Shown here piece after piece: positions 3,154-31,090 of a DNA stretch of 45,075 bases. Source of the DNA: an uncultured Gammaproteobacteria bacterium (GTDB lineage Bacteria; Pseudomonadota; Gammaproteobacteria; CAKMZV01); assembly GCA_929200535.1 (NCBI GenBank), contig CAKMZV010000018.1, forward strand, positions 1-45,075, read 5' to 3'. Position 1 is the first letter of the stretch; every line of letters begins with the position of its first letter. Position numbers and translations under genes: made by a program. A model generated the notes under the pieces. That model searched no databases. It saw nothing but the letters and a program-made list of their open reading frames with translations, and was not told the DNA's origin.

Positions 3154-3402
3154 ATGAATAATAAGATTGGATTAGCGATTGCAAGTTTGGCGTTTGTTGG
3201 AGGCACTGTTAGTAGTGGTGTTGTTTTAGCTGGTGATAAGGAGAAATGCTACGGCGTTGCTAAAGCTGGTAAAAATGATTGTGCTACCAAAACTTCTGTA
3301 TGCGCAGGACATTCAACATCCGATGGGCAAAAAGATGCTTATATTGTTGTGCCTAAAGGATTGTGTTCTCGTTTAGTTGGAAGTAGTAAAGAATCCAGCT
3401 AA
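3154..3402 (+). CDS. bufA1: Bufferin A1-type precursor peptide (DUF2282), copy 1
   Basis: 82 residues with a TAAGGAG ribosome site. A signal peptide (about residues 1-26, ending VVLAG) precedes a mature part that begins KEKCYGVAKAGKNDC, the hallmark of DUF2282/BufA1. Four cysteines are at 32, 43, 50 and 71. In characterised bufferins, core cysteines are converted by the MNIO enzyme BufB with BufC to copper-binding heterocycles, and the exported peptide buffers copper. The neighbouring bufB and bufC make that role likely here. This is the first gene of the cluster. A second, closely similar copy follows 95 nt downstream. Confidence 0.9.
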   Translation: MNNKIGLAIASLAFVGGTVSSGVVLAGDKEKCYGVAKAGKNDCATKTSVCAGHSTSDGQKDAYIVVPKGLCSRLVGSSKESS

Positions 3403-3497
3403 TATTTGGAGGGTATGTTTGAAATGAGGAGACGTTGTTTTTCTCTTTCTCAAGCTGACCTGTTTAATTTATTAAATTTTATAAAGGAGTTATATAT

Positions 3498-3746
3498 ATG
3501 AATAAAAAAATTGCATTAACTGTTGCGAGTTTAGCGTTTGTTGGTGGTACTATTAGTAGTGGTGTTGCTTTAGCTGGTAGTAAAGAGAAATGCTACGGTG
3601 TTGCTAAAGCAGGTAAAAATGATTGTGCTACAAAAACCTCTTCATGTGCAGGGAGTTCAACTTCTGATGGACAAAAATATGCTTTTATTGCTGTGCCTAA
3701 AGGTTTGTGTGACCGTTTAGTTGGTGGTAGTAAAGAATCCAGCTAA
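3498..3746 (+). CDS. bufA1: Bufferin A1-type precursor peptide (DUF2282), copy 2
   Basis: 82 residues, the same length as copy 1, behind an AAAGGAG ribosome site. The signal peptide ends GVALAG and the cysteines are again at 32, 43, 50 and 71. Differences from copy 1 are concentrated in the signal peptide and in the loop after the third cysteine (H/S, D/Y, V/A changes), while the CYGVAKAGKNDCATKTS core is unchanged. It is therefore a recent tandem duplication under purifying selection at the modified core. It is probably a substrate of the same BufB/BufC pair. Confidence 0.9.
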   Translation: MNKKIALTVASLAFVGGTISSGVALAGSKEKCYGVAKAGKNDCATKTSSCAGSSTSDGQKYAFIAVPKGLCDRLVGGSKESS

Positions 3747-3836
3747 AGGGTAGTCGGTTTATTCAGAGAGCACTTTATATTCCTCTATGCTCCACTTTAT
3801 TTCTGTCATAAGTGCTCTTTGGATATTTGATATTTT

Positions 3837-4002
3837 GAGATCTTTGCACAAAAGATATGACAAGTGAAAAAGTAAAAAATTGCCCTGACTCTCGTTGTGA
3901 AACTTGTGAAGACGGGCGTGTTGGTTGCTTTCCACGCCTCAATCAGAGCGATTTTTTATCTTTTTCCTTTTGCCATACGCCATACTTTTATGCAAAGGTC
4001 TC
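3837..4002. mobile_element. MITE, family 1, copy 1 (between bufA copy 2 and bufB)
   Basis: About 166 bp bounded by imperfect terminal inverted repeats: gagatctttgcacaaaag on the left and the reverse complement gagacctttgcataaaag on the right. It encodes nothing. The inner sequence (gatatgacaagtgaaaaag..., ...cctcaatcagagcgatttttta) recurs in three further copies in this window. It separates bufA from bufB, so the two parts of the cluster may no longer share one transcript. Confidence 0.85.
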
Positions 4003-4030
4003 ATTTTGTCAGTAGTATTGCTTTATTAGT

Positions 4031-4885
4031 GTGCTAAATTACCCAAATTATTCAATTCTTAATCAGCCAGGTATTGGTTTACGTGGTCCTCACTTATTTC
4101 AAGTCTTAAATGAAAAACCTAACATTAATTGGTTGGAAGTTCATGCAGAGAATTTTTTCTCAGAAGGAGGGGAGCATATTGAGGCTTTACAAAAAATTAG
4201 AGAAAATTACCCTTTGAGTGTTCATGGAGTTGGGCTTTCTCTTGGCACTACAGATGAGCTGAATAAAGAGCACTTAAAAAAACTCAAACAAGTTGTTACG
4301 CGTTTTGAACCAGCGTTACTTTCTGAACATTTAAGCTGGGGGGCAGTGCATAATCAATATTTTAATGATTTGTTGCCCTTACCCTATACCGAGGAATCTT
4401 TGCAAAATTTTTGCGATAAGGTTAAACAAACACAAGATTTTCTTAATCGACAAATTTTGATTGAAAATCCTTCATCCTATCTTAGATACCGAGAATCAAC
4501 TATTCCAGAATGGGAATTTTATTCTTCTTTGCCTGAAAAAACAGGCTGTGGTTTGTTGCTTGATGTTAATAATTTTTTTGTTAGTGGTTTTAATCACGAA
4601 TTTGATCCATTAGAATATTTGCGTGCGGTAAATCCTAAGGATGTTAAAGAAATTCATCTTGCTGGTTTTGCGACTAAAGAATTGGAACAAGGAACTTTAT
4701 TGATTGATGATCATGGTAGTTTGGTTGATGATAGAGTGTGGGAATTATTTGTTCTCACTATGCAAAAAGTTGGCTCTAAGCCTGTGTTGATTGAGTGGGA
4801 TACTGGCGTACCTGATTTATCTGTGTTATTAAATGAGGCGAATAAGGCAGGCGAGTATATGTTGCAGTATGAGCAAGTCGCTTAG
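4031..4885 (+). CDS. bufB: MNIO (DUF692) peptide-modifying oxidase of the bufferin cluster
   Basis: 284 residues, the usual length of DUF692/MNIO enzymes. These are multinuclear iron oxidases with a TIM-barrel fold that rework cysteines in precursor peptides. Family motifs are visible: GIGLRGPH near the N-terminus, NWLEVHAENFF, LSVHGVGLSLG, LLSEHLSWG, ILIENPSSYL, GLLLDVNNFFVS, EIHLAGF, DDHG and PVLIEWD; the His, Glu and Asp in these blocks are the expected metal ligands. The start is taken as GTG at 4031 because an in-frame stop lies at 4013 and no ATG or TTG fits. There is no clear ribosome site and the MITE ends only 28 nt upstream. It overlaps bufC by 17 nt, implying translational coupling. 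Confidence 0.92.
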   Translation: MLNYPNYSILNQPGIGLRGPHLFQVLNEKPNINWLEVHAENFFSEGGEHIEALQKIRENYPLSVHGVGLSLGTTDELNKEHLKKLKQVVTRFEPALLSEHLSWGAVHNQYFNDLLPLPYTEESLQNFCDKVKQTQDFLNRQILIENPSSYLRYRESTIPEWEFYSSLPEKTGCGLLLDVNNFFVSGFNHEFDPLEYLRAVNPKDVKEIHLAGFATKELEQGTLLIDDHGSLVDDRVWELFVLTMQKVGSKPVLIEWDTGVPDLSVLLNEANKAGEYMLQYEQVA

Positions 4886-5627
4886 AAGTCTTCAAGAAGG
4901 GTTTGCTGAAGATGTGATTTTCAGCCCTTCTGCTGATGTTGTTAGTAATAGCTATTTACCTCGTGGTAATTTTAGTGGTAAAGATTTTATTGATGTTTAT
5001 CGCAATAACTATGTGCTGAGTTTAACGGAAGCACTTGCGGCATCGTATAGTGCAGTTAAGCGATTAGTTGGTGAGGATTTTTTCTTTTATATTGCCAAGC
5101 AGTTTGTGCAAAAAACACCATTGACAAGTGGTTATTTAACTGATTTTGGCGATGAGTTTGCCGATTTTTTAGAGACCAATGAGGAGTGTAAGGAATTAAG
5201 CTACCTGCCTTGCATTGCACGATTAGAGCGTTTTTATGAAAAGGCTTATCATTCGGCAGAAATACCTGCTTATGAGATAGCTAACTTGGCATCGCTTGGG
5301 ATTAAGGATGAAAGTGATTTATATATAAATTTTCACCCATCAGTTTATTTATTAGAGTCATCATTTCCAGTGGTTTCTATTTGGTTGATGGATGATCAAA
5401 GCGAAGTGCCAGATTTAAATAATAATCCTCAAAAGGCAATTATTTATAGACGGCAATATAAAGTTCAAGTTGAGCTTATTAATCAGGATGAGTTTGATTT
5501 GTTAGGTGCTTTAATGGAAAATAACTGCCTGAATCAGGCATATGCCTTGACAAATGAAAAAGTTGACTTACAACCATTTCTTGCAAAGTATATTGAGCGT
5601 CAAGTATTTGTTGATTTTTATATTTGA
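4869..5627 (+). CDS. bufC: DUF2063 partner protein of the bufferin MNIO enzyme
   Basis: 252 residues from the ATG at 4869 (MSKSLRSLQEGFAEDVIF), preferred to an ATG at 4833 because family members begin with this LQxxFAxxI helix. The N-terminal DUF2063 domain shows the typical block FIDVYRNNYVLSLTEALAASYSAVKRLVGEDFF, which resembles a precursor-binding helical domain. The C-terminal half is the usual alpha/beta region. In related clusters BufC binds the leader or core of BufA and forms a complex with BufB. The gene starts inside the end of bufB. Confidence 0.88.
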   Translation: MSKSLRSLQEGFAEDVIFSPSADVVSNSYLPRGNFSGKDFIDVYRNNYVLSLTEALAASYSAVKRLVGEDFFFYIAKQFVQKTPLTSGYLTDFGDEFADFLETNEECKELSYLPCIARLERFYEKAYHSAEIPAYEIANLASLGIKDESDLYINFHPSVYLLESSFPVVSIWLMDDQSEVPDLNNNPQKAIIYRRQYKVQVELINQDEFDLLGALMENNCLNQAYALTNEKVDLQPFLAKYIERQVFVDFYI

Positions 5628-5672
5628 ACAGAATGCTTTGCATATTATAATTAAAAAACTATTAAATTAAAA

Positions 5673-6113
5673 ATGATGTGGCAGAAAATATATCAATGCA
5701 ATTTGTGCATATCGGCAATTTTGCAAAAATACGTTAAGGACATTTTTTTATTATTTTTGCGTTTTGCGGCGAGCATTCCATTTTTTAATTCGGGGATGTT
5801 GAAAATAAGTGGTTGGGATTCGACTCTTTATTTATTTGAAGAGGTCTATCAAGTTCCGGTATTAAATTTTGTAGTGGCAGCTTATCTGGGTACTGCGGCT
5901 GAACTTATATTACCTATTTTTATAGTATTAGGTTTATTTACTCAAGTAAATGTTTTGATGCTATTTGCAGTCAATGTTGTTGCTGTTTTATCCTATCCAA
6001 CCCTTTGGGAAGGGGGATTTTATGATCATAAAATGTGGGGATTGATGTTATTTTTCATCGCATTTTGTGGTGCAGGAAGAGTATCTATAGATTATTTTCT
6101 AAATAGAAAATAA
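5673..6113 (+). CDS. DoxX-family membrane protein
   Basis: 146 residues with four hydrophobic helices. The FLRFAASIPFFNSGMLKISGW block matches DoxX-family proteins (for example PFFNSGLxKI). DoxX members are frequent partners in DUF2282-DUF692-DUF2063 operons, where they are thought to act in the membrane in copper or redox protection; the exact reaction is not known. It lies 45 nt after bufC. The start (ATG at 5673 or the next codon 5676) has no strong ribosome site. Confidence 0.85.
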   Translation: MMWQKIYQCNLCISAILQKYVKDIFLLFLRFAASIPFFNSGMLKISGWDSTLYLFEEVYQVPVLNFVVAAYLGTAAELILPIFIVLGLFTQVNVLMLFAVNVVAVLSYPTLWEGGFYDHKMWGLMLFFIAFCGAGRVSIDYFLNRK

Positions 6114-6688: not shown

Positions 6689-6876
6689 GAGACCTTTGCA
6701 CAAAAGATATGACAAGTGAAAAAGTGAAAAATTTCCCTGATTTTCGTTGTGAAACTTGCGAAGACGGACGTATTGGCGTAGCCTGTGCTGAACTTGCTTC
6801 AGTATTCCACGCCTCAATTAGAGCGATTTTTTATCTTTTTCCTTTTGCCATACTTTTATGTTTATGCAAAGGTCTC
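6689..6876. mobile_element. MITE, family 1, copy 2 (between sigma and anti-sigma genes)
   Basis: 188 bp, ends gagacctttgcacaaaag and its inverted match ...tttatgcaaaggtctc. An open frame of 65 codons through it has no relatives and simply follows the element. It has an extra segment (ggcgtagcctgtgctgaacttgcttc) compared with copy 1. Insertion between the sigma factor and its regulator may uncouple their expression. Confidence 0.85.
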
Positions 6877-10350: not shown

Positions 10351-10359
10351 GAGACCTTT
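10351..10359. mobile_element. MITE, family 1, copy 3: left fragment cut by IS481
   Basis: The nine bases gagaccttt are the outer end of a MITE whose remainder resumes after the IS at 11409. The last five bases, ccttt (10355-10359), are repeated at 11409-11413 as the target duplication. Removing the IS and one ccttt restores the gagacctttgcacaaaag terminus seen in the other copies. Confidence 0.8.
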
Positions 10360-11408
10360 TGTAAAGGTTAGGTAATTCGCTGACAGAAATTATAATTATA
10401 ATTTTTGGAGATTTTATGAACCTATCAGACAAAACAGTAGAAAGGAACTACATACAACGCTACCTATTTTTATTTGAAGAATATGCTCAAGTTAAGCAAA
10501 AAAAGCATTCAGAATATCGCTTTCTTAAAGATTTTTATGAATCCCATGCACTTAAACGTCAAGTTTTTCTTAAATTTTACAATCGTTATAAAAACAGTGG
10601 ATTTGATCAGGAGGCCATTCTTCCCCAAAAAAGAGGTCCTAAATGGCTTAGCAGACGACCCAGTCAATACATTGAATCCTGCGTTCTTAAAGAACGAAGA
10701 AAAGGGAACAATAAATTTGAAATTCATCAACTTCTGCTTCCTGTTCTTGGCAGCTTAACCCCAAGCCCCTCAGGTATTTACACGATTTGCAAACGACATA
10801 ATCTCAATATTCTCAATCGACCGATGAAAGAAATCAAAAAGAAAATAATCAAACAAAAGGCGGGTGAGTTAGGACATATTGATGCTCATCACTTAGGCAA
10901 AGGCATCCTTGCGAAAGAACCGCATAATAAATACTACTTGTTAGCCGTTGTGGATAGTTGCACGCGTTTAGCTTGGGCTGAAGTATGCTCTAACTTAACG
11001 AGTTTAGAAGTGATGTTTGCAACGATGCGGTGTTTTTATCGATTACAAGATCAATTTGGCGTGAGATTTAAAGAAATTCTTTCAGACAATGGTAAAGAAT
11101 TTTCAGGAAAAAGAGCAACGGATACAATGCCTGGGCACCCTTTCGAAAGACTGCTCACAGAAATGCAGATAAAACACCGCTATACGCGTCCTTATCGACC
11201 ACAAACAAATGGCAAGGTTGAACGTCTTTGGCGAACTATTGAAGAAGACTTAATAGAAGGAACTCATTTTGAATCGTTGGAACAATTAAAGAACGATTTG
11301 CAGGACTATCTTTTATACTACAATTATGAGAGACCTCACCAAGGCATCAATGGGAAATCCCCTGCTGATTTTTTAAAAAATCTGTCAGCGAATTAGCTAA
11401 CCTTTACA
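10360..11408 (+). mobile_element. IS481-family insertion sequence, complete
   Basis: 1049 bp, beginning tgtaaaggttag and ending ctaacctttaca. The terminal inverted repeats are about 29 bp long with few mismatches (inner part ctgtcagcgaatta). The 5'-TGT...ACA ends and a single DDE transposase gene match IS481. It is flanked by a 5-bp target duplication (ccttt) and inserted in a MITE terminus. Its transposase frame is intact, so it may still be active. Confidence 0.9.
10416..11396 (+). CDS. IS481-family DDE transposase
   Basis: 326 residues, full length for the family. An N-terminal helix-turn-helix region includes the QKRGPKWLSRRPSQYIE segment. The integrase core (rve) begins around residue 145. 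Catalytic residues are visible: D156 in GHIDAHHLGKG, D224 in ILSDNGKEF and E269 in TNGKVERLWRTIEED. The C-terminal YYNYERPHQGINGKSPADFL block is typical. The gene fills the element and stops 12 nt before its right end. Confidence 0.95.
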   Translation: MNLSDKTVERNYIQRYLFLFEEYAQVKQKKHSEYRFLKDFYESHALKRQVFLKFYNRYKNSGFDQEAILPQKRGPKWLSRRPSQYIESCVLKERRKGNNKFEIHQLLLPVLGSLTPSPSGIYTICKRHNLNILNRPMKEIKKKIIKQKAGELGHIDAHHLGKGILAKEPHNKYYLLAVVDSCTRLAWAEVCSNLTSLEVMFATMRCFYRLQDQFGVRFKEILSDNGKEFSGKRATDTMPGHPFERLLTEMQIKHRYTRPYRPQTNGKVERLWRTIEEDLIEGTHFESLEQLKNDLQDYLLYYNYERPHQGINGKSPADFLKNLSAN

Positions 11409-11563
11409 CCTTTGCACAAAAGATATGACAAGTAAAAAAGTAAAAAATTGCCCTGACTTTCGTTGTGAAATTTGCAAAGACGGACGTATTAGCTTCATTT
11501 CACGCCTCAATCAGAACAATTTTTTATCTTTTTTCTTTTGCCATACTTTTGTGCAAAGGTCTC
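11409..11563. mobile_element. MITE, family 1, copy 3: main part after the IS481 insertion
   Basis: It starts with the duplicated ccttt, continues gcacaaaagatatgacaag and ends gtgcaaaggtctc. The sequence is colinear with the other copies. A TATAAT hexamer at 11568-11573, just outside its right end, is the likeliest -10 for ubiE, so the MITE end may supply the -35 side; no good -35 is visible. Confidence 0.85.
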
Positions 11564-11631
11564 AGCCTATAATTAATAAGACGTACTCAACGTCTTAATT
11601 TTTATTTCTATTTTTATTTAGGAGCCCTGTT

Positions 11632-12426
11632 ATTACTACCCCCACTGATTATCACAAGAGTGAAAATACTAATTATACTCAAGAAGGAACCACCCACTTT
11701 GGTTACCGAGAAGTTTCTATATCGGAAAAAAAACAGTTAGTTGGTGAAGTATTCGATTCTGTTTCGGATAATTATGATTTGATGAATGATCTAATGTCGT
11801 TGGGGGTTCATCGTTATTGGAAGCATCGTGCTATTGAAATGCTTGATGTTGAATCATTATCAAATTTACAGGTTTTAGACCTTGCTGGAGGTACTGGCGA
11901 TTTAAGCGTTTTACTGAGCAAAAAACTTGGTGCAGATAGTAGGGTAGTGCTGGCTGATATTAATTATGCAATGGTTAGCGTTGGGCGTAATCAGCGTATT
12001 GACCAAGGCTATAGTGGCAAACTGGATTTTACCATTGCCAATGCCGAACAACTTCCTTATCCCGATGCTTCTTTTGATCGCTTAATTATTGGCTTTGGCT
12101 TGCGTAATGTGACGGATAAGCAAAAGGCATTAGATGAAATGTTTCGTGTCCTTAAACCTCAAGGAAGAATGCTGATTTTAGAATTTTCTAAGGTGCAAAA
12201 TGAACTACTTGCTAAGGCTTATGATTGGTATTCCTTTTCGATTTTACCCATCTTAGGAAAAATCATTACCAACGATGCCGAGAGTTATCAATATCTTGCT
12301 GAATCGATTCGTAAGCATCCAGACCAACAAGAATTACTATCAATGATTGAGCGCAGTGGTTTTAGTGAACGTCAATATGAGAATTTTTTACAAGGGATGG
12401 TTGCCATTCATACAGCTATAAAATAG
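11632..12426 (+). CDS. ubiE: UbiE, ubiquinone/menaquinone C-methyltransferase, apparent ATT start
   Basis: 264 residues if translation begins at ATT 11632. SAM-dependent C-methylation in ubiquinone and menaquinone synthesis. Motifs: TTHFGYREV near the N-terminus, VFDSVSDNYDLMNDLMSLGVHRYWK, VLDLAGGTGDLSVLL (SAM loop), ADINYAMV, IIGFGLRNVTDKQKAL and YLAESIRKHPDQ. The first ATG (11779) falls inside the conserved N-terminal region, so it cannot be the start. Between the in-frame stop at 11596 and codon 11776 there is no ATG, GTG, TTG or CTG in frame. ATT at 11632 lies 7 nt after an AGGAG (11620-11624). Start of the ubi gene group. Confidence 0.93.
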   Translation: MTTPTDYHKSENTNYTQEGTTHFGYREVSISEKKQLVGEVFDSVSDNYDLMNDLMSLGVHRYWKHRAIEMLDVESLSNLQVLDLAGGTGDLSVLLSKKLGADSRVVLADINYAMVSVGRNQRIDQGYSGKLDFTIANAEQLPYPDASFDRLIIGFGLRNVTDKQKALDEMFRVLKPQGRMLILEFSKVQNELLAKAYDWYSFSILPILGKIITNDAESYQYLAESIRKHPDQQELLSMIERSGFSERQYENFLQGMVAIHTAIK

Positions 12427-12438
12427 TTATAAATAAAA

Positions 12439-12921
12439 ATGCTTTCTTTATTATCATTTGTTAATGGGTCGGTCAATAAGGTATTGGCTTATGATCTTGT
12501 TGCCCAAAAGAAACTCTCACAGATGAACGGGCGTAGTTTATGCTGGGATGTGAGTGGTTGGGGGTTGACTTTGGTTTTTCAAGTAGATGAAGGGAAGCTA
12601 ATAATAAATGATCGTATGATACCTTGCCAAGTTACGGTAACCGCCTCGCCCCAAGAACTTTTTGACCTATGGCAAAAATATGAGCAAGACACAACGGTAA
12701 ATTTAAAAATCACCGGAAACCCCTTAGCATTACAAGATTTTGCACAACTTTTTAAAGCACTTAATATTGATTGGGAAGCGTTATTGGAAGAATTTTTTGG
12801 TGCCTTTAATGCAAACCTGGCAGGGCGAGTAGTTGGCAAAGTGGGGTCTCAAATGAGTCGTACCTTACACCGTATTCGTGATGATATCAAAGCATATCAT
12901 CGAGACGAAGTAAATAATTAA
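12439..12921 (+). CDS. ubiJ: UbiJ, SCP2-domain accessory factor of ubiquinone synthesis
   Basis: 160 residues. An N-terminal SCP2-like lipid-binding domain is followed by a C-terminal helical tail. Identification rests on the position between ubiE and ubiB, usual in gammaproteobacteria, and on patterns such as MNGRSLCWDVSGWGLTLVF, VTVTASPQELFDLW, LKITGNPLALQDFAQLFKALNIDWEALLEEFFG and the terminal GSQMSRTLHRIRDDI. UbiJ holds the prenylated ring intermediates in the soluble Ubi complex. Only 12 nt separate it from ubiE and 9 nt from ubiB. Confidence 0.9.
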   Translation: MLSLLSFVNGSVNKVLAYDLVAQKKLSQMNGRSLCWDVSGWGLTLVFQVDEGKLIINDRMIPCQVTVTASPQELFDLWQKYEQDTTVNLKITGNPLALQDFAQLFKALNIDWEALLEEFFGAFNANLAGRVVGKVGSQMSRTLHRIRDDIKAYHRDEVNN

Positions 12922-12930
12922 TTTTCTCTT

Positions 12931-14529
12931 ATGATAAGGCAATTTATTCGTGCTATTAGGCTTTTCTATCGTTATCGGATGGATGAATTATTAAATGAAT
13001 TTACCGATAAAAACTGGCTCTGCGTATTGTTGCGTTATGCACCTTGCAATCTTGGAGTAAAAAGAGTCGATTCCTCAATGGATAGAGGCAATCGTTGCCG
13101 TCAGTTTTTATTAGAAATGGGCACTTACTATGTCAAGTTAGGTCAAGCCTTGTCTGTTCGTAGGGATTTCATTCCTGCCGATATTTGTGATGAATTAGCG
13201 CACCTTCGTGATGCTTGCCCACCATTTGCTGGTGAAATTAGCATCGCCTTAATTGAACAACAACTTGGGCAACCCATCAATCAATTATTTGATGATTTTG
13301 ACCCTAAGCCAATGGCTTCTGCCTCCATTGCTCAAGTACATACCGCCAAACTTAAAGATGGCTCATCAGTCGTCGTGAAGGTGGTTCGTCCAGATATTGA
13401 TAAACGGATTACCGAAAGTTTAGACTCTATGTATGCCATCGCCAAATTTTTCGACCGCTGGTTTCCAGAATTTAAGCAATTACGCCCTCTTGAGATAGTT
13501 GATGAGTTTTCTTCTTTGCTACACAATGAAAAAGATATGCTCCGTGAGGGAGCCAATGCTAATCATATTCGGGCTAATTTTGAAGGTGATACAACGCTTT
13601 ACGTACCCAAAGTCATTTGGAGCCATACCGCTTCAAGAGTATTGGTGCTTGAGCGTATTTATGGCATACCTATTCATCGGATGGATCGGCTGAAAAAAGC
13701 AGGCATTGATTTAAAACAGATTGCTGATAATGGGGTGAAAATTTTCTTTAAACAACTTTTTGAACATAATCTATTTCATGCGGATATGCACCCGGGCAAT
13801 GTGTTTATCAGTGAAGATGGCAAATATCAAGCGGTTGATTATGGTATTGTTGGGGCACTTTCAGAATATGATAAATTATATATTGCTGAGAATCTATTAG
13901 CCTTTTTCAATCGAGACTATCGCCGTATTGCCGAATTGCATATTCAATCCCAGTGGGTCAGTGCAGATTCACGTGTGAATGATTTAGAATCTGCTTTTCG
14001 TAGTGTTAGTGAGCCTATTTATGGAAAACCATTAGATGAAATTTCATTTGCTCAATACCTTTTACGCTTGCTTCAAGTAGCTCGTGAGTTTGGTATGCAG
14101 GTGCAACCGCAATTACTGCTACTGCAAAAAACGTTATTTAATATTGAAGGCTTAGGGCGTGATCTTTATCCTAATTTAGATCTTTGGGAAACTGCCAAAC
14201 CCTTCTTAGAAAACTGGGTTAAAAAACAATTTTCACCCAAAGCAATTATTAAAGATTTACGCCACCATCTTCCTTTTTTGCGTGAGCAAATACCCGCTAT
14301 GTTATACCAACAAAATCAATCACAAAGACAAGATAAAGAAAGAATAGCTATTTATTCTGGCTATCGAAAATTAGCACTCAGTGCTTTTTTTCTCTCAATG
14401 CCTATTCTGCTCTTTTTTTATCCCATAATCATATATCTTGGAGAAAGGGAAACGCTGGTGGTGAATATTCTTTGCATCGTACTTGGTTTATGGTTCTTTT
14501 TCCGTTCAAAGATAGCACTGCCCAAGTAA
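12931..14529 (+). CDS. ubiB: UbiB, atypical kinase-like ATPase of ubiquinone synthesis
   Basis: 532 residues. The KxGQ motif of UbiB/COQ8 kinases is present (YVKLGQALSVRRDFIPADI), followed by PMASASIAQVHTAKLKDGSSVVVKVVRP (alanine-rich loop and lysine), HADMHPGN (catalytic loop) and VDYGIVGAL (metal loop with D-Y-G). Two hydrophobic helices close the C-terminus, as in UbiB, which anchors it to the inner membrane. It supports the ubiquinone-synthesis complex by ATP hydrolysis, possibly extracting lipid intermediates. It lies within the ubi operon, and ubiG starts one base after its stop codon. Confidence 0.95.
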   Translation: MIRQFIRAIRLFYRYRMDELLNEFTDKNWLCVLLRYAPCNLGVKRVDSSMDRGNRCRQFLLEMGTYYVKLGQALSVRRDFIPADICDELAHLRDACPPFAGEISIALIEQQLGQPINQLFDDFDPKPMASASIAQVHTAKLKDGSSVVVKVVRPDIDKRITESLDSMYAIAKFFDRWFPEFKQLRPLEIVDEFSSLLHNEKDMLREGANANHIRANFEGDTTLYVPKVIWSHTASRVLVLERIYGIPIHRMDRLKKAGIDLKQIADNGVKIFFKQLFEHNLFHADMHPGNVFISEDGKYQAVDYGIVGALSEYDKLYIAENLLAFFNRDYRRIAELHIQSQWVSADSRVNDLESAFRSVSEPIYGKPLDEISFAQYLLRLLQVAREFGMQVQPQLLLLQKTLFNIEGLGRDLYPNLDLWETAKPFLENWVKKQFSPKAIIKDLRHHLPFLREQIPAMLYQQNQSQRQDKERIAIYSGYRKLALSAFFLSMPILLFFYPIIIYLGERETLVVNILCIVLGLWFFFRSKIALPK

Positions 14530-14530
14530 A

Positions 14531-15229
14531 ATGAGCAGCCATCAAGAAAACGATACCCAACACTTTGATAGCCTTGCCGCTGAATGGTGGGATACCCAAG
14601 GAAAATTTAAAGTATTGCACCAAGTCAATCCACTACGGCTATCCTTTATGCAAAAACAAGACTCTCTGCAAGGAAAACGCATCCTCGATATTGGGTGTGG
14701 TGGAGGTATTCTATCTGAGGCATTGGTCAAGTTAGGGGCAGAAGTTGTCGGGCTTGATTTATCACAAAATACGATTGCAGTTGCCAAGCAGCATTGTGCA
14801 CAAAATAATCTTGCTATTGAATATCATTGCCAATCGGCACAAGACTTTGCAGCTCAGAACCCTAAGCCCTTTGATATAATTTGTTGCTTTGAAATGTTAG
14901 AGCATGTTGATGATCCTGCGGATGTTATTCAAAGTGCAAAAAAAATACTCAACCCTCAAGGGACATTCTTTGCTTCGACCTTAAACCGTAATTTATTAAG
15001 TTGGTTATTTGCTGTTGTAGTGGCAGAAAATGTGCTTAACTGGATTCCCAAAGGAACGCATAACCACGGTAAATTTATTCAACCAAGTGAACTCACTGCA
15101 ATGGCACGAAAAGCAGGTTTTTATTTTACTCATAGCAATGGCATTATTTGGGATCCCTTAACTCAGAGTTTTGCACTCTCTGAAAAGCGAGTAGAAATTA
15201 ATTATATTTGTCGCTTTACTAATCTTTAA
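14531..15229 (+). CDS. ubiG: UbiG, bifunctional O-methyltransferase of ubiquinone synthesis
   Basis: 232 residues. The N-terminal FDSLAAEWWDTQGKFKVLHQVNPLRL block is specific to UbiG. The SAM site is ILDIGCGGGILSEAL, followed by VVGLDLSQNTIAVAK, FDIICCFEMLEHVDDP and the membrane-binding segment FFASTLNRNLLSWLFAVVVAENVLNWIPKGTHNH. It carries out both O-methylation steps. Immediate adjacency to ubiB and to the phosphatase gene shows one long co-transcribed group. Confidence 0.96.
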   Translation: MSSHQENDTQHFDSLAAEWWDTQGKFKVLHQVNPLRLSFMQKQDSLQGKRILDIGCGGGILSEALVKLGAEVVGLDLSQNTIAVAKQHCAQNNLAIEYHCQSAQDFAAQNPKPFDIICCFEMLEHVDDPADVIQSAKKILNPQGTFFASTLNRNLLSWLFAVVVAENVLNWIPKGTHNHGKFIQPSELTAMARKAGFYFTHSNGIIWDPLTQSFALSEKRVEINYICRFTNL

Positions 15230-28129: not shown

Positions 28130-31090
28130 TTAGATTAATTTTTTGTGATGTTCTTGAATATTTTTAATCAGTGTTTTGTTGCTATTGATTATTTGGTTTA
28201 GGGGGCTGTCTTGTTTGTATTTCTCTTGGGTTAGCGTTTGCATTAGGGTTCGTAGGTAGATTTTTCTTTTGTTTGATGCGAGGTGTATTTTATCATCGTT
28301 ATTTTTGTAGAAATCACTGGGATGAATTTGTTTTAGGTTAATGCACTTGAGAATCGTTTGGTCAATTTGAGTCCTAAGGGGTTCCATTTGATCAGAGGCT
28401 AAGGTTTTGTGTTGTCCTCTTGGTTGGTGCATATAGCCATGGTATGGGTTTAAGCCTTGAATGGTAATGAGGCTATCGGTGTAGTTATATAAAATGGTGT
28501 AGCCAAGTGAGAGTAGTACGTTGATTGGGTCTTTGGGTGGGCGTTTGTTGCGTTGTGTAAATTGGTATTGTGGAGGAATTAATTGTTGGTAGGCGGTGTA
28601 GTAGGCACGTGCTGCTTTGGCTTCAATAGCAATGAGTTGGGTGATATTTTGACTATTGGGAATCAGCTTGATATGGCATTGTAGTGCATTGAGTTGGCGT
28701 AAAATGCTTTTTTTAGTTTTTTCTTGGTAGGTTTGTAAAAGTTTATGTTGTTGGGTTATTTTTTGTTGGATGTTATGCTGGGCAATTTTCAGGGAAAAAT
28801 CTGAATTAGCAAAGCTTTGTATTTGTTGTAGCCAGAGTGTTTTGTTATAGGTATGATTTTGATTGCTGTGTAATGTCCCTTGAAGGCTTCCATTACTTTT
28901 GAGAAAATAGATGTTTTTTTGTTGCTCCAAGGCATTTTGTAAGCTTGCTGTCGTAATTTGATGCTTGCCAATAAGCATTATGGATTGAATTTGTTGCCAT
29001 GGGTAGGTGGCAATGGTGTTTTCTTTTTCACTAATGATTAGTTGGTTTTGTTCCGTATTGAGTTCTTTATATCCGCCTTGTATGATAAGAGTATTCCCAT
29101 AGGGTGTATCTGTTGTTAAGGAGTGGATAAGAGTAGGTTGGTTTGTTGGGATTCTTTCATCATTAAACAGGTAGTTTTTATCGAGTGGATAGGAGGTGTT
29201 TTTTTGTGGTGGTGGAGATGGGAATTCAGGTAGTTCATTTTCGGTGGCTTGTGTGTGATGCGAAAAACGATAACCAAGAAAGTGATAAGATTGCTCAGGA
29301 CTTATATGATTGGTCTTATCTCGATTCGTATAAAGATGATGCTCATTTAATGATTGATTAACCGCTTTTTGAGCTTGTTCGCTTTGTTGTTTGTTTTTGG
29401 AAAGGATAATAAAATCATCTGCATAGCGGATAAGCCGATGCCCTTGTTTTTGTAAGTCGTTATCAAAATCATCAAGAATAATATTGGAGAGAATGGGGCT
29501 AAGTGGGCTACCTTGTGGCAAACCTTTTTCTCTATGGACATAAATTTGTCCGTAAAGGTAGGGGGCTTTTATCCATTGATAAATTAGCTTTATTGCTGGG
29601 TCTTGAGGGAAAAGCCCGTGTAGGCGGACGAGTAGGGTACGATGGTTAATGGTTTCAAAAAATTGTTTAATGTCACTTTCAAATACCCATTTGTAGCCTT
29701 GTTTAATAGCTTTTTCAATGGCATCTTTGGCATCTTTTCGACTACGTTGGGGGCGGTAACCATAACTGTGTTGGTAGAATAGTTGGTCAAGGCGTTGGGA
29801 GAGTATATTAGCAAGAGCTTTTTGCAGAATGCGTTCTTCAAATTTAGGGGCAGTGATAATGCGGTAGCTACCATCTTTTTTTCGTTTTTTCCATGCTTCA
29901 ATAGGAGTGGGTGAGTATTTTTCTTGTTCGAGTTGGTTTTGAATTTCGCTTATTTTACTTTGTAGGTAGGGCGTGTTAATATGAGTATATTGTTGGCGTG
30001 CCGCTACTTTAAGTTCGCTTTTGGCTTGTTGCAAGGTTTGTTCTATATTATTATGGGTAAAGGCTTGTTGTAGGATGTTTGGGGTGGTGGGTGGCGGTCT
30101 GAATAGGTAGGGTTTTTGATTATTTTTTAAGAGATACTTGCCCCACCCAAAAGAACTTAGTGCACCTATGCCTGTGAGTTGGCTGTAGCTTAAAATTTGT
30201 TGCCATTGTGGGCTTAAAGAGTCAGTAAACTCAATTTGAATTTCTCCGAGCATTCCACCGCAGTGGGTTTCATTAGCTTGTTGGGTGCGTGCTTTGAGGT
30301 GTAGCCAGAATAGGTCTGTTTGATATTTTTTAATACGTGGAAGATAGGCTTCTAATTCATCAAAAGTTTGGCTGGGAGTGTTGCTTTGTTGATTATTCAG
30401 GTTGTTGGCAAGATAGAATAAGAGACGTGGGATGTTGGTATTATCTTGATCTGCCATATAGCGTTGCTCACCTTTGTAGGATTGAGCCGCTTTTTTTAGC
30501 AGACGCACTGGGCTTAGCCATTGCAGGGTAAGTTCTTTTTGCCAAGAAAGTTGCTCAATTTGGTGAGAAAAATCTTGGTAAGTAATAGGGTGTAAATAAT
30601 CGCTTAATTGTTGGGGGAGTTCTGTGGATGAAAGTGTGGTTAAATTAAGGGGCTCTGCTTGGTGCCATTGTTGGTTAGTTTCAGGGAGATTAAATAGCGG
30701 CAGGTTTTGAATTTTGGTGAGCTTGATATTTTGTGGATCAAGGCTACTTGGTTTTCGAGATTGAGTGGAGGTAGTGGCGGTGTTCGTGTGGATTTGCAAT
30801 AGCAATTCATTTAAAAATTGTGGGGACTGGTGTGGGTTGGTAAGTAGAATATCAAAACTATAATCAGCATTAGATAGATAAGAGGGAGTGCCACTTTCAA
30901 TGGCATCTATTTTGCAGTAAGTATTAAAATTTTCAGCGTATTGCTGATCAGATTGGGCAATTTGCCCACGCAAATAACCAGCAAGAATATAGCGGTGATT
31001 AAAGGGGAAAGTGGTGGGTTGTTTTAACGTTAGCGTTATTCGCAAACGATAAATTGGGAATAGCGGTTGTAAATCAGGTAATGCAGACAA
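28130..31090 (-). CDS. cas1: Cas6-reverse transcriptase-Cas1 fusion
   Basis: 986 residues in three parts. Residues 1 to about 322: Cas6-like RAMP fold ending in the glycine-rich loop LTGIGALSSFGWGKYLL (305-321), for cutting precursor crRNA. About 370-615: group II intron-like reverse transcriptase with D473 in ESDIKQFF, GLPQGSPLSPILSN (523-536) and YADD (556-559). About 640-986: Cas1 with metal ligands E823 (IEAKAARAYY), H888 (YHGYMHQPRG) and D900 (ASDQMEP). Active-site residues of RT and Cas1 are all present. Such fusions, known from Marinomonas, can acquire spacers from RNA. The protein is strikingly glutamine-rich. Confidence 0.96.
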   Translation of the reverse strand: MSALPDLQPLFPIYRLRITLTLKQPTTFPFNHRYILAGYLRGQIAQSDQQYAENFNTYCKIDAIESGTPSYLSNADYSFDILLTNPHQSPQFLNELLLQIHTNTATTSTQSRKPSSLDPQNIKLTKIQNLPLFNLPETNQQWHQAEPLNLTTLSSTELPQQLSDYLHPITYQDFSHQIEQLSWQKELTLQWLSPVRLLKKAAQSYKGEQRYMADQDNTNIPRLLFYLANNLNNQQSNTPSQTFDELEAYLPRIKKYQTDLFWLHLKARTQQANETHCGGMLGEIQIEFTDSLSPQWQQILSYSQLTGIGALSSFGWGKYLLKNNQKPYLFRPPPTTPNILQQAFTHNNIEQTLQQAKSELKVAARQQYTHINTPYLQSKISEIQNQLEQEKYSPTPIEAWKKRKKDGSYRIITAPKFEERILQKALANILSQRLDQLFYQHSYGYRPQRSRKDAKDAIEKAIKQGYKWVFESDIKQFFETINHRTLLVRLHGLFPQDPAIKLIYQWIKAPYLYGQIYVHREKGLPQGSPLSPILSNIILDDFDNDLQKQGHRLIRYADDFIILSKNKQQSEQAQKAVNQSLNEHHLYTNRDKTNHISPEQSYHFLGYRFSHHTQATENELPEFPSPPPQKNTSYPLDKNYLFNDERIPTNQPTLIHSLTTDTPYGNTLIIQGGYKELNTEQNQLIISEKENTIATYPWQQIQSIMLIGKHQITTASLQNALEQQKNIYFLKSNGSLQGTLHSNQNHTYNKTLWLQQIQSFANSDFSLKIAQHNIQQKITQQHKLLQTYQEKTKKSILRQLNALQCHIKLIPNSQNITQLIAIEAKAARAYYTAYQQLIPPQYQFTQRNKRPPKDPINVLLSLGYTILYNYTDSLITIQGLNPYHGYMHQPRGQHKTLASDQMEPLRTQIDQTILKCINLKQIHPSDFYKNNDDKIHLASNKRKIYLRTLMQTLTQEKYKQDSPLNQIINSNKTLIKNIQEHHKKLI

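Follow-up and report, generated by a model that had tools for sequence, protein, structure and literature searches.

In Escherichia coli, the AUU start codon of pcnB is said to limit expression of the gene, as Binns and Masters reportedly found in 2002. The ubiE gene considered here, which serves in the synthesis of the respiratory molecule ubiquinone, resembles pcnB in being a housekeeping gene with an AUU start, putative in our case, and differs from it in encoding another enzyme and in that the start of pcnB was tested by experiment, whereas that of ubiE is read from sequence. The infC gene of E. coli has an ATT start as well, and non-canonical starts are repressed by IF3 (PMC5472188). There, as would hold for ubiE, AUU is read by the ordinary initiator tRNA, but the rare start of infC is tied to IF3 autocontrol, a logic that ubiE lacks, and infC of the present genome (208.7 bits) starts with TTG behind AAGGAG and not with ATT. 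For cvfC1 of Staphylococcus aureus, one report (PMC13009471) gives an AUU start with an extended Shine-Dalgarno (SD) site. The combination of AUU and SD is shared with ubiE; however, in cvfC1 both the AUU and the extended SD are conserved across staphylococci and supported by ribosome profiling, whereas the SD of ubiE is a 5-base core without extension. Finally, the loss of ATG leading to a weak ATT start has been described for rsbW of Listeria (ATG>ATA>ATT), where an rsbW-eGFP reporter with ATT gave undetectable fluorescence and a product detectable by Western blot (PMC13068326). Those mutants differ from the present case in that they were laboratory-selected and their regulatory effect was measured. 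Among the papers searched, none treats ubiE, AUU and start codon together, and for ftsL, start codon and TTG nothing relevant was among the matches listed. Judged from its sequence, an ATT start for ubiE appears uncommon but of a known kind.

Reading frame and coding onset of ubiE

The features at the locus are collected in Table 1, with positions given in the window, i.e., the whole stretch of 45,075 nucleotides that was analysed. From the TAA at 11596, the frame of ubiE reads TTT TTA TTT CTA TTT TTA TTT AGG AGC CCT GTT and then ATT (11632), which is followed by ACT ACC CCC ACT GAT TAT and, further on, by ACC (11692) CAC TTT GGT (11701). The codon walk found no in-frame ATG, GTG, TTG or CTG between this TAA and the TTG at 11779, which is followed by an ATG at 11782. 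The sequence-only reading had placed the conserved N-terminus upstream of the first ATG and had described the interval after the stop as free of in-frame ATG, GTG, TTG and CTG, both of which were borne out, but the next canonical codon, which it gave as 11776, is in fact the TTG one codon later. Apart from ATT 11632, the only in-frame AUN or NUG codon over 11599-11778 is ATA 11719, which lies downstream of the motif. Moreover, ATG is absent from all frames from 11425 to 11774, and one indel within the leader would thus not bring back an ATG start.

Table 1. Features at and around the ubiE locus in the window.
Feature	Position	Strand	Basis or remark
MITE-like element split by IS481 element	10351..11563	+	ends GAGACC...GGTCTC, flanks ATCCT/AGCCT
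IS481-family element	10360..11408	+	36-nt inverted repeats, transposase 10416-11396
TATAAT, possible -10 box spared by the insertion	11568..11573	+	putative; not among the calls of the promoter scan
Perfect palindrome (8-bp arms, 5-nt loop), resembling a terminator or an operator	11577..11597	+	ubiE leader
In-frame TAA, last stop upstream of ubiE	11596..11598	+	codon walk
AGGAG, SD site, 7 nt before ATT	11620..11624	+	complementary CCTCC at 16S rRNA 3' end
ATT, putative ubiE start codon	11632..11634	+	sole AUN/NUG between stop and motif; coding onset
ubiE, 264 codons + stop	11632..12426	+	TIGR01934 match; single strong UbiE match in genome
THFG of conserved N-terminal motif	11692..11703	+	F23, G24 invariant in 40/40 sequences
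TTG, first canonical in-frame start; would truncate enzyme	11779..11781	+	codon walk; cuts model helix 30-56
SCP2-domain protein, ubiJ position	12439..12921	+	PF02036 31.1 bits, cut-off 21.3
ubiB	12931..14529	+	TIGR01982 above cut-off
ubiG	14531..15229	+	TIGR01983 above cut-off

The AGGAG site and its spacing to ATT 11632, already pointed out in the earlier reading, were confirmed. By chance, an AGGAG ending 5-9 nt before ATT is expected at a rate of 0.36% (204 of the 57,232 ATT triplets counted over 845 kb of sampled sequence), and AGGAG sites before clear ATG starts (243 such genes) have a spacing of 5-10 nt in 16 of 21 cases. By codon statistics, the onset of the coding signal coincides with ATT 11632. 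Per codon, the log-odds average 0.29 over 11632-11778 and 0.26 over the rest of ubiE, compared with -0.33 over 11599-11631, as estimated from a first model that included the window among the sequences used. When the window was kept out of the training set, ubiE was again flagged, the coding boundary falling on codon 9 of the frame and hence two codons ahead of ATT; across the codon-statistics runs, the boundary falls at codon index 9-11. The other two frames have negative coding scores over 11632-11691. We infer initiation at ATT 11632: among the readings of the sequence as assembled, a start of ubiE at this codon, as proposed from the letters of the DNA, has the best support.

The conserved N-terminus and its relatives

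The encoded protein falls in the UbiE/MenG family (TIGR01934, 258.9 bits vs. a curated cut-off of 158.35) and scores under the cut-offs of the stricter UbiE equivalogs NF001240 and NF001242; the genome holds one strong UbiE match only, which is this gene. The conserved N-terminal pattern FG..V...K...V..VF.SV...YD is present, and nine residues encoded before TTG 11779 (F23, G24, K33, V37, V40, F41, V44, Y48 and D49) are the same in all 40 aligned sequences. In the AlphaFold2 model (mean pLDDT 86), residues 1-17 are disordered and residues 30-56 form a helix, and the alignment to the closest solved relative, 4obw (2-methoxy-6-polyprenyl-1,4-benzoquinol methylase, mitochondrial), runs from residue 29. 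A start at TTG 11779 would strip nine invariant residues and, in the model, would cut helix 30-56.

The sample of relatives comprised 134 loci (the best 80 of 581 confirmed from genome contigs, plus 29 and 25 from two other searches), three of which duplicate the sequence of another, leaving 131 distinct. A canonical codon lies within 30 codons before FG in all 131 (125 ATG, 3 GTG and 3 TTG), a count of presence near the motif and not a proof of use. The nearest start codon in relatives is 3-26 codons before FG, mostly 5-12, which puts the 22 codons of the ATT here at the long end. ATT is kept in none of the 131 distinct relatives, all from other orders. An upstream in-frame ATG in relatives, which the sequence-only reading had named as evidence against an ATT start, is broadly present (the other six relatives having GTG or TTG), but these proteins are just 49-60% identical to this UbiE (51-60% for the intact relatives in the alignment). 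At such distances, canonical starts near the motif in all 131 relatives mark ATT as lineage-specific, not as wrong here. An ATG to ATT change in this lineage is what we infer.

Translation machinery, genome-wide census and upstream repeats

Nothing suggests a changed start-codon rule in the translation machinery. The initiator tRNA has the anticodon CAT and a GGG/CCC anticodon stem, which we take to be the mark of an initiator tRNA; with both ordinary, an altered initiator tRNA was ruled out. An altered anti-SD was also ruled out: the single 16S gene ends in GGATTACCTCCTT (L185 6909-6921, with mismatches allowed) and keeps the CCTCC core intact, while the expected 16S 3' end had no exact match in L185. 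IF3-dependent regulation of ubiE is possible by analogy with work on other genes. A regulated ubiE, a thought already voiced in the earlier reading, is unsupported, given the TTG start of infC and the lack of conservation of ATT.

To put the case in its genomic context, 1147 coding-like open reading frames (ORFs) in 1,520,755 bases (77% of the genome) were surveyed, and those whose coding signal sets in 12 or more codons ahead of the first canonical start were flagged. Of the 17 flagged ORFs, 10 have a canonical start no more than 22 codons into the ORF, and in the other seven the first canonical start comes at least 30 codons in. Five of these seven were set aside: L227 and L241 shadow stronger opposite-strand ORFs, L188 looks frame-broken, L189 is a tail behind an A-run, and in L202 codons derived from the repeat precede the ATG of a gene. 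Only ubiE and L203:3064-3354 survived inspection, and widespread ATT use was thereby ruled out. An SD-anchored scan of 967 genes, under a stricter score limit that left the second gene outside, gave no further convincing ATT start. As separate observations, the coding frame of L189:17144-17779 (minus strand) runs past a stop through a long A-run, presumably a dnaX-like slippage site, and L188:13625-13954 and L198:10135-10365 have a frame-broken look, one of them at an A-run.

The second gene (L203:3064-3354 in G000:C16) lies in the ftsL position, flanked by a 477-aa ORF, which follows an RsmH-like ORF named by eye, and by an FtsI-like penicillin-binding protein. It is called ftsL-like from this position, from the transmembrane and coiled-coil look of its product by eye, and from a sub-threshold Pfam match to FtsL_2; a PF04999 search of the genome found nothing over the cut-off, the best score (12.8 bits) being elsewhere. 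The gene has no canonical start, and ATT 3076, 6 nt after GGAG, is the best candidate. CTG 3064 overlaps the SD, and a TTG is shifted from the frame by a single base, which leaves an indel error as a serious alternative for this gene. A second gene of the same make-up (GGAG, 6 nt, ATT) makes a lone error at ubiE less likely.

Both genes lie just downstream of a MITE-like inverted-repeat element, which is 159 bp in most copies, has 5-bp target repeats and is present at 40 or more sites of the genome, including 3837-4002, 6689-6876 and 10351-11563 in the window. The split copy stops 68 nt short of the ubiE ATT, and since it is flanked by ATCCT/AGCCT, the ubiE leader itself looks native. The leader palindrome, TAAGACGT-N5-ACGTCTTA, is the sole match in the window at up to 3 mismatches (expected 0.11). 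A simple promoter scan found no MITE-borne promoter driving ubiE. At the ftsL-like gene, a copy of the repeat is directly upstream. A repeat end within 110 nt upstream is seen in 45 of 1143 genes, and both start-less genes are among them (naive chance 0.0015, a post hoc figure from two genes), an adjacency compatible with faulty assembly close to repeats as well as with a biological connection. Enrichment of GTG/TTG starts beside the MITE was ruled out (10/46 vs. 261/1097).

Elsewhere in the window, 3154-6113 carries two tandem DUF2282 genes (the second by eye) with MbnB/TglH/ChrH-type (DUF692), DUF2063 and DoxX genes, a cluster that we take to be bufferin-like; a MITE copy separates the second DUF2282 gene from the one that follows, which is called from GTG 4031. 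A reverse transcriptase-Cas1 fusion of 985 aa with a called TTG start occupies 28130-31090 and adjoins a Csx16-like gene.

Alternative explanations and significance

The ubiE gene is probably translated from AUU 11632. The AGGAG would pair with the ordinary CCUCC of the 16S rRNA and place the ribosome at AUU, which the normal initiator tRNA (CAU) would read via a third-position mismatch. Such a start would be weak yet sufficient, rescued by the good SD site, and the product would be (M)TTPTDYHKSENTNYTQEG-TTHFGYREV...; by analogy, ubiE output would presumably be lowered. It counts against an AUU start that ATT is very inefficient in reporter work, a surprising choice for a gene on which respiration is expected to depend.

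The main rival, which we consider unlikely, is that the cell has ATG at 11632, the base in the assembly being either an error or a minority variant. The two codons differ by one base, ubiE is close to a repeat of at least 40 copies, at which assembly or polishing can fail, the ftsL-like gene is likewise beside a repeat copy, and two low-scoring ORFs (L188 and L198) look frame-broken. However, a canonical start is missing in just 2 of the 1147 coding-like ORFs, and errors are thus not common; two errors would have had to arise independently, each leaving ATT at a good SD distance; and ATG is called in 34 of the 46 genes with a repeat within 110 nt upstream.

We regard it as highly improbable that translation begins elsewhere, at a non-AUN codon or out of frame (GTG 11660 or CTG 11627), and reaches ubiE through a frameshift. 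Both codons are in the +1 frame, which is open up to a TAG behind an A8 run, but this frame scores negative over 11632-11691 and lacks TTHFG, CTG 11627 is just 2 nt from the SD, GTG 11660 has no SD, and the ATT frame is unbroken and coding-like. There is also little to recommend a ubiE that is decaying after loss of its start, or made only as a short form from TTG 11779 or ATG 11782. The missing canonical start and the element insertions directly upstream would agree with decay, but the sole copy in the genome retains a 275-codon open frame, its codon use is normal and it is 51-60% identical to intact relatives, and the short form would be without the nine invariant residues and half a helix. 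Equally doubtful is a scenario of paired steps, in which MITE insertion immediately ahead of housekeeping genes would have raised or re-wired their transcription and an ATG to ATT change at ubiE and the ftsL-like gene would then have been selected as a translational brake.

Under translation from AUU 11632, gene callers limited to ATG, GTG and TTG would begin ubiE at TTG 11779, dropping the first 49 residues. If the start is real, the short list of bacterial genes with AUU starts would gain one from respiratory biosynthesis and possibly another from cell division, and one genome would offer two such genes for joint testing.
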